Part shown: in pieces, positions 28,961 to 34,123 of the stretch
How the letters are laid out: every line of letters begins with the position of its first letter
Position numbering within the stretch: position 1 is the first letter of the stretch
DNA from: an uncultured bacterium
Lineage (GTDB): Bacteria; Planctomycetota; Phycisphaerae; Sedimentisphaerales; Anaerobacaceae
NCBI GenBank assembly: GCA_913009355.1
Contig: CAJVYN010000001.1
Location: 1-52,338 of the forward strand
Length of the DNA: 52,338 nucleotides
Reading direction: 5' to 3'
Program-made: the position numbers and the translations under genes
The notes under the pieces: model-generated
Told to the model about the DNA's origin: nothing
Database searches by the model: none
Seen by the model: the letters and a program-made list of their open reading frames with translations, nothing else

Positions 28961-29770
28961 CTAATTATCCGGTTTCTCAACATTCTCTGCTGTTTCTGTG
29001 GTCAATGTTTTCTCGGTCTTGACGGCATTTTTACGGCCTTGTACCGGTGCAGCTTTAGGCCTGTTACCACCCCGCGGATTTACGCCGCGCCTTGGCGGAC
29101 GATGCCGGCGAACCTGCCTCGGCTCAATTTCTTCGCCGAATTTGCCTTTATAAATCCAAACTTTAACGCCAATCGCTCCGTATGTTGTCCTAGCTGTTGC
29201 ACATGCGTAATCTACATTAGCATCCAGGGTATGCAGCGGGATACTGCCAAGCTTCTGCGTTTCCTTACGTGCCATTTCTGAGCCTGCCAACCGTCCGCTG
29301 CAGATAATCTTAACTCCTTTAGCACCGGCGTTCATTGCCGATTCGCAATGCTGCTTCATTGCACGCCTGAATGAAGCACGTTTACATAGCTGCTCGGCAA
29401 TTGCTTCGGCTACCAAAGCAGCATTCAGGTCAGGCTCTTTTATCTCGATAACATTGACGCTCACCTTTCGCCCTGTCATATCCTCAAGCTCTTCCCGCAA
29501 CCTATCGACTTCACCACCTCTGGGGCCAATAACTATGCCGGGCCGAGCACTATGCAGTGTTACTTTTACCTCGTTGCGTGTTCGGATCACTTCAACCTTT
29601 GCCACCGCCCCTTTGGGCATTTGACGGTTGTGTTTCTTGTCAACATACCTGCGAATTTTCTGATCCTCGACAAGAAAATCACCGTAGTCGGCCTTGGGAG
29701 CAAACCAAGTGCTTTGCCATCCAAGCGTTATTCCTGTTCTAAAACCTATTGGTGATACTTTCTGACCCAT
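28961..29770 (-). CDS. rpsC: Ribosomal protein S3
   Basis: 269 residues from the ATG at 29770 (MGQKVSPIGFRTGITLGWQS), the invariant S3 start. An in-frame extension to 29818 is spacer word repeat (GTCGCTCATCGCTCGTCGCT) and is rejected. The KH domain shows RPGIVIGPRGGEVDRLRE; the C-domain has GAKGVKIICSGRLAG. An Arg/Pro/Thr-rich tail of about 50 residues extends beyond the usual length. Confidence 0.95.
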   Translation of the reverse strand: MGQKVSPIGFRTGITLGWQSTWFAPKADYGDFLVEDQKIRRYVDKKHNRQMPKGAVAKVEVIRTRNEVKVTLHSARPGIVIGPRGGEVDRLREELEDMTGRKVSVNVIEIKEPDLNAALVAEAIAEQLCKRASFRRAMKQHCESAMNAGAKGVKIICSGRLAGSEMARKETQKLGSIPLHTLDANVDYACATARTTYGAIGVKVWIYKGKFGEEIEPRQVRRHRPPRRGVNPRGGNRPKAAPVQGRKNAVKTEKTLTTETAENVEKPDN

Positions 29771-29828
29771 AATTTCGTCGCTCATCGCTCGTCGCTCGTG
29801 TCTCGGATTGCGAGGCACAGCTCACGAG

Positions 29829-30377
29829 TCACACTTCTGTTACTGTTATATGTATATGGCAGGCCTTTTTGCGAATAGGGTGGGCTCTGCCTCTGTCTTT
29901 TGGTATCCATCTTTTGGTACCAATACGTATTCCCGCATCGTCAACACGTGCTTCACTGACATAAAGATTATCCACATCAGCCTGCTGCTCATCGGCATCT
30001 GCGACGGCACTTTTTAGAACCTTATCAATCATTGTTGCAGCACGTTTTCTTGTGAACTTCAATATATCCATTGCGTCCTGGACACTTCGGCCGGCTATTA
30101 ATCTCGCAACCAATCTGGCCTTGCTGGCTGAACCTGGAGCATAGCGATAAGACGAATGCCAGTCGAGCAAGTCATTTACATCAGCAGATAAGGCAGTCGC
30201 CAGACGCCGAACATCTTCTCTGTGCGGTATGGGCGTAAACAGGCCTTTCTGCCAGTTTTTAACGGCGGCAACTGCTTCTTTTCTATTCAGATTCCCTCTG
30301 ACAAGTTGGCCGGCCAACTGCTCTATACTCATCTGTCGCTGTTCGCAAAGCCGTTTTAATTTATTAGCGCTTAACAT
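29829..30377 (-). CDS. rplV: Ribosomal protein L22 with an extra N-terminal HTH-like domain
   Basis: 182 residues against a usual 110-120. The L22 core occupies about 73-182 (SKARLVARLIAGRSVQDAMD, ILKFTRKRAATMIDKVLKSA, DNLYVSEARVD, KDRGRAHPIRKKACHI). Residues 1-72 look like a Cro/XRE-type helix-turn-helix: LKRLCEQRQMSIEQLAGQL, a recognition-helix-like KEAVAAVKNWQKG, then HREDVRRLATALSADVNDLL. No Met start lies close before the core, and the frame is uninterrupted in a gap otherwise only 41 bases from rpsS. The extension is therefore probably translated. It could bind rRNA or DNA, or regulate its own operon; this is inference. Confidence 0.9.
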   Translation of the reverse strand: MLSANKLKRLCEQRQMSIEQLAGQLVRGNLNRKEAVAAVKNWQKGLFTPIPHREDVRRLATALSADVNDLLDWHSSYRYAPGSASKARLVARLIAGRSVQDAMDILKFTRKRAATMIDKVLKSAVADADEQQADVDNLYVSEARVDDAGIRIGTKRWIPKDRGRAHPIRKKACHIHITVTEV

Positions 30378-30418: not shown

Positions 30419-30688
30419 CTATCTTATTTTCTTGCTTGAATGACCCTTAAAAGTCCGTGTCGGCGAAAACTCGCCCAGCTTATGTCCAACCATATCCTCG
30501 GTAACAAAAACCTTATGAAACATTTTGCCGTTATGAACCATAAAGGTAAAACCCACAAACTCGGGAATTATCGTACACCTTCTTGCCCAGGTTTTTATCG
30601 GCTCACGGGTGCCGGCTTCAACCTGCCTGTTGACCTTGATAAACAACTTCTCGTCAACATAAGGCCCTTTTTTAAGAGATCTTCCCAT
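30419..30688 (-). CDS. rpsS: Ribosomal protein S19
   Basis: 89 residues starting [15 protein letters not shown], with [20 protein letters not shown] and [20 protein letters not shown]. 30S head protein. S10-operon order. Confidence 0.97.
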
Positions 30689-33650: not shown

Positions 33651-34094
33651 AACTTTCCTCGACGTTTTCGCCAACGCAAAAGTTTTATTTCAAATTCACG
33701 CTTCAAAATTTATAAGACTCTGAAGTATATCAGCTTATAAATCAGACGCAAGATAAAAAAATTTACTCTTAGCACAGCGTATAGTTCTTTATTATCCGCT
33801 AAATCTATCTTGCTTGATTTTGGCAGGAAAGGCCTTTTAATTGATTATTGATTATTGATTATTTTTTTATGTTTTCTTCTATCGTCAATTATCGATAATC
33901 AATAATCACTCGCCTTCCTTAAAGAGTTCGGGTTCGGACCATTTTGCGGCCCTTCTAAAGCCATTCGTCGGCTTCGGTATACCCCTAAGTATTTAATAAA
34001 CCATCCTTGACTACCAAATCACAGATATGCCACAGCCCAACTGGTTTTACGCAAAGTCATCCCTGACAATGCTCGCTACGGCTGAAAAACTCCG
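33651..34094 (-). promoter_or_regulatory. Long 5' leader of the S10 operon, possibly structured
   Basis: About 440 bases separate the predicted start near 34088 and rpsJ. A GC-rich island (about 33911-33995 on the plus strand) contrasts with AT-rich flanks. On the transcribed strand it includes GGGCC-GCAAAAT-GGTCC, a 5-base hairpin with two-base asymmetry, and runs such as CCGAAGCCGACGAATGGC. It is followed by a TTGATTATTGATTATTGATT / AATCAATAATC inverted word repeat (33840-33910). No gene is seen in it. A regulatory leader is inferred from length and position only. Confidence 0.45.
33840..33910. repeat. TTGATTA word repeat forming an inverted repeat
   Basis: TTGATTATTGATTATTGATT near 33841 faces TCGATAATCAATAATCA near 33891 across an AT-rich loop. 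The same words recur at 41640-41690 and 37265-37285. Confidence 0.65.
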
Positions 34095-34123
34095 AATATA
34101 TCACGCAAATCAATCACTGTCAA
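34095..34123 (-). promoter_or_regulatory. Strong sigma70-like promoter for the S10 operon
   Basis: On the minus strand a perfect TTGACA (34123-34118) is followed by a 17-base spacer and TATATT (34100-34095). It lies in the gap after the fusA stop and points at rpsJ. Confidence 0.7.

Follow-up and report, generated by a model that had tools for sequence, protein, structure and literature searches.

To our knowledge, universal ribosomal proteins in bacteria seldom gain whole folded domains. The window, by which we mean the whole 52,338-nucleotide stretch analysed here, carries an rplV gene that raises the question of whether ribosomal protein uL22, which lines the nascent-chain tunnel, has acquired a helix-turn-helix (HTH) domain of the phage-repressor kind, a fold that normally reads DNA, and whether such a domain would regulate genes or belong to the ribosome.

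The rplV locus and the fold of its extension

The str-S10-spc ribosomal cluster lies on the minus strand of the window, as do all features described below. Within it, rplV (29829..30377, stop included) holds the S10-operon position of uL22, between rpsS upstream (30419..30688, 41 nt away) and the rpsC reading frame downstream (28961..29818). The gene starts with ATG and has 182 codons. Residues 78-179 (29841..30146) form the universal uL22 core: they match Pfam Ribosomal_L22 (PF00237) at 105.9 bits against a cut-off of 28 and NCBIfam TIGR01044 at 95.2 bits against 73.65, and Foldseek aligns the modelled uL22 part with bacterial uL22 chains (E 5.9e-10). Since the Pfam match starts at residue 78, some 73 residues precede the core (residues 1-73, 30159..30377), close to the 72 or so of the original prediction; by Pfam, the product consists of the HTH followed by the core and nothing further.

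The full protein was modelled by AlphaFold2 from 71 natural homologues (mean pLDDT 90.6, pTM 0.81). The extension reached a pLDDT of about 90-92, with helices at 4-14, 18-25, 32-43, 53-62, and 67-70, and kept the same fold when modelled by itself. Its top VIA-align match was C.Csp231I (Z 10.4, rmsd 1.6 A over 67 residues), followed by CylR2, SinR, P22 c2, and others with the Cro/C1 fold, which made up nearly all of the top list. Foldseek likewise ranked Cro/C1 proteins first (probability about 1), with a best E of 0.058 and none below 0.001. The extension of the window itself falls below the Pfam cut-offs (HTH_31, 22.5 bits vs 27; HTH_26, 16.5 vs 22), and those of two relatives pass them (L140, HTH_3, 25.3 vs 23; L139, HTH_31, 27.1 vs 27). 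A phmmer search of the extension against PDB sequences gave no meaningful match, and weak profile matches to TniQ HTHs (E 0.001) were treated as generic HTH similarity. On these models, the extension is predicted with high confidence to be a lambda-repressor-like Cro/C1-type (XRE) HTH fold. The assignment to this type, originally made from sequence, is thus borne out by the structure prediction that had been proposed as its check, with helices close to those named at the time. An 11-residue strand (71-81) runs in the model from the HTH straight into uL22 with no flexible linker, and the junction is accordingly modelled as rigid. The claim of a true HTH-L22 fusion is supported as well.

Compared with known Cro/C1 (XRE) proteins (C.Csp231I, CylR2, SinR, P22 c2), the extension shares the five-helix fold (Z 9-10) and the W..G...P pattern after helix 3, whereas it has a longer loop between helices 2 and 3, an invariant Asn ahead of the Trp, variable DNA-reading positions, and fusion to a ribosomal protein with no free copy. 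With bacterial uL22 it shares the core domain, the core fold, and the slot between rpsS and rpsC; the ordinary form, however, begins at the core, and the form in the window adds a folded N-terminal domain of 73 residues. The L22/unknown-domain fusion PRK12279 (NF008917) also joins uL22 to an extra domain, but the extra domain here is N-terminal, and the window protein matches only the L22 part of that family (47.3 bits vs a cut-off of 526). Extensions as such are ordinary, given that uL22 is among the proteins that gained them at evolutionary transitions (PMC11354259). As the original prediction had supposed, no description of an HTH-uL22 fusion was found in the literature searched, although absence there is not proof, and a complete HTH at the N-terminus of bacterial uL22 appears to be new.

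Distribution, translation, and ancestry

We surveyed 148 Phycisphaerae genomes of at least 90% completeness with a profile of the extension. It was found in 27 of 28 Sedimentisphaerales and in all members of two further families, f10 (9/9) and f25 (2/2), so that collecting rplV from related planctomycetes, as had been suggested, found the domain conserved across the order and beyond it in these two families. All 38 strong matches in the class were rplV N-termini, and everything else had E >= 0.002. In the one order member without a match (G135), the S10 leader RNA lies 489 nt from a contig end, which seems to interrupt the operon; every Sedimentisphaerales member with an assembled rplV has the extension. 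Other planctomycete lineages, among 392 genomes of the phylum, lacked it. Furthermore, a free-standing paralogue as its source was sought and not found in the window's own genome, which has a single copy of the extension, or in the class or phylum genomes; the sole extra match below 1e-4 (26.7 bits) lies inside a 912-residue frame (G220). An HMM built from the order only scored 65-68 bits in f25 and 48-66 bits in f10, both out of sample, and by sequence the extensions of Sedimentisphaerales, f10, and f25 are homologous.

The start codon, the extension length, and the core residues are conserved across Sedimentisphaerales. The start lies 74 codons ahead of the core in nearly all members of the order, 75 in f10 (GTG), and 72 in f25. 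With no assembled rplV of the order lacking the extension, and with the start almost always 74 residues before the core, it is not a product of chance. Among 61 close genomes, 57 had a match, and all 57 matches spanned the extension. In 76 close pairs, which are not independent, dN/dS was about 0.20 for the extension and 0.075 for the core at similar synonymous divergence (pS). The extension evolves faster than the core, and the ratios indicate that purifying selection is acting on it at the protein level.

These data also bear on whether the extension is translated and then removed, or whether mature uL22 begins internally near codon 70, both of which we consider very improbable. The rplV start in the window has no clear Shine-Dalgarno, and the uL22 of other families in the class begins near the codon 70 point, as either of these readings would lead one to expect. 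Against them, no internal ATG or GTG near the core is conserved among the compared rplV genes, the commonest internal codon being TTG, and one complete genome (L010) has no internal start near codon 70 at all; the strand that continues over the junction and the selection on the extension also argue for its use. The conserved start near codon 70 that was named at the outset as a finding against the fusion was looked for and not found. The extension is apparently translated and a uL22-specific domain.

Measured from the rpsS stop, the uL22 core lies 223-460 nt away in fused lineages; the spacing is mostly 11-153 nt in non-fused ones. A separate HTH gene ahead of rplV was sought in the latter and rejected, as these gaps, including an exceptional one of 219 nt in a genome with a short uL22 (G234), held no HTH. 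The fused lineages were not recovered as a single clade: f10 and f25 were placed with non-fused families in both the 23S rRNA tree and a FastTree tree of concatenated ribosomal proteins (with f20, f22, and f24, supports 1.0), and their uL22 cores were most similar to those of non-fused families. This placement implies that the domain is either ancestral and was repeatedly lost, or moved between lineages. We give about even chances to a history in which a repressor-type HTH was captured by uL22, became within Phycisphaerae an obligate large-subunit domain that took on a new task on the face of the tunnel exit (docking of a factor, or clamping of rRNA), and was later lost or transferred between lineages.

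The HTH and the S10 leader RNA

The original prediction suggested that the HTH could autoregulate the S10 operon, in that free HTH-uL22 would bind DNA or the S10 leader RNA and repress its own operon. The HTH fold, the basic residues, and the place of the gene within the operon are compatible with such a role, as is the conserved leader RNA that precedes rpsJ in the order. A DNA-binding regulator is expected to keep its base-reading residues, and their conservation within an orthologous group marks Cro/C1 transcription regulators. Here, by contrast, the canonical DNA-reading positions 32-37 belong to the most variable part of the domain (entropy 2.2-2.9 bits, except for the conserved A35). In addition, the distance from the rpsS (S19) stop to the rplV start goes down to 1 nt in some genomes, which leaves no operator there.

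The leader itself is a structured RNA (34084..34033) that lies some 360 nt ahead of rpsJ and is preceded by a promoter recognisable by sequence (TTGACA-N17-TATATT, 34123..34095). It comprises an outer stem (CAGCC/GGCTG), a conserved AGCGAGC/TGCG internal loop, and a hairpin, with compensatory changes in 11 of 13 pairs and values of covariation reached by none of 500 shuffles. One copy is present in each of the 28 Sedimentisphaerales, and none was detected in the 120 other class genomes, including those of f10 and f25. It had no match in Rfam, and we rejected mimicry of 23S rRNA (R1 model, no 23S match at E <0.9). On sequence evidence, we propose it as a candidate new ribosomal-protein leader. 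As f10 and f25 carry the HTH without a detectable leader, the two are uncoupled across the class, making binding of the leader by the HTH less likely in the order as well. Moreover, the S10 leader of E. coli is bound and controlled by uL4 (PMC10931766), so such a leader needs no HTH. Taken with the hypervariable DNA-reading positions and the 1-nt gaps, this leaves autoregulation by the HTH unsupported, and we regard it as improbable. Further leader blocks at 33940..33820 are kept within the family, where TTAAGGAAGGC pairs with GCCTTTCCTGCCA; they may form a regulatory hairpin belonging to that S10 leader.

A probable place of the domain on the ribosome

Most likely, the domain belongs permanently to the ribosome of these lineages and does not serve as a gene regulator. 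More specifically, we lean towards a reading in which uL22 with its rigid HTH is an architectural 50S module in Sedimentisphaerales and two Phycisphaerae families, contacting rRNA or a neighbour and reading no operator. HTH-uL22 would be made as one chain and assemble into every 50S subunit, with the HTH on the solvent side near the tunnel exit, where uL22 lies, touching the rRNA backbone or a neighbour protein through a conserved face (K6, K/R40, N41, W42, K/R44, K/R48, P49, and P51). In Sedimentisphaerales, N41, W42, P51, A60, and W73 are invariant, and K or R almost always occupies positions 6, 40, 44, and 48. This invariant or basic face, the variable positions 32-37, and the lack of a linker and of a free copy agree with a module anchored to the ribosome. 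Against this reading, the extension has a lower mean net charge (+4) than the core (+8) and is the faster-evolving part.

EDF1/Mbf1 shows that rRNA and ribosomal proteins can be bound by a Cro/C1 fold: its HTH attaches to the ribosome between rRNA helices h16 and h33 (PMC7486125). That protein also acts on the ribosome through a Cro/C1 HTH (PMC7486125), but it is a separate, unfused eukaryotic/archaeal factor on the small subunit of collided ribosomes, its HTH is joined to an N-terminal or zinc-ribbon domain where the extension has the uL22 core, and there is no sign of common descent between the two.

The added rRNA contact raised in the original prediction may exist, but no feature of 23S rRNA tracks the fusion: there was no such indel in 17 sequences, which dismisses an rRNA expansion as partner of the HTH, and no substitution separating fused from non-fused in 25 sequences, the one candidate column (E. 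coli 136) being lost once the set grew to that size. No rRNA partner is therefore pinpointed. Replacement of a lost S10-operon protein by the HTH was also rejected, as all others tested were present in fused lineages.

The lack of an rRNA feature tracking the domain speaks for a different reading, in which the HTH protrudes from the 50S subunit and, through contact between proteins, draws in a lineage-specific factor (a nascent-chain factor, a hibernation factor, or a polysome or membrane contact). uL22 is located around the tunnel exit (PMC13338714), and the VIA-align matches include Cro/C1 folds that sit in enzymes (HppE, HEPD) and not in DNA-binding proteins. Nevertheless, among exposed residues conservation is highest at basic ones, a pattern compatible with rRNA too, and no partner gene was identified; we consider docking unlikely, if less so than autoregulation.

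An architectural 50S module would clearly exemplify how a ribosome can take up a transcription-factor fold: a DNA-reading fold, present order-wide, on a protein that lines the tunnel. Planctomycete ribosomes should then show extra density, and cultivated relatives are possible test organisms.

The comparison of 23S rRNA also revealed single-genome insertions of about 300-480 nt in L189, L171, L178, and L307 (E. coli 518-571, 1822-1902, and 1157-1185), possibly introns or intervening sequences; the 23S of L307 is also over-long. In five further genomes (G040, G079, G105, G107, and G151), 23S matches fell in several pieces with gaps on one contig, representing either fragmented hits or intervening sequences.
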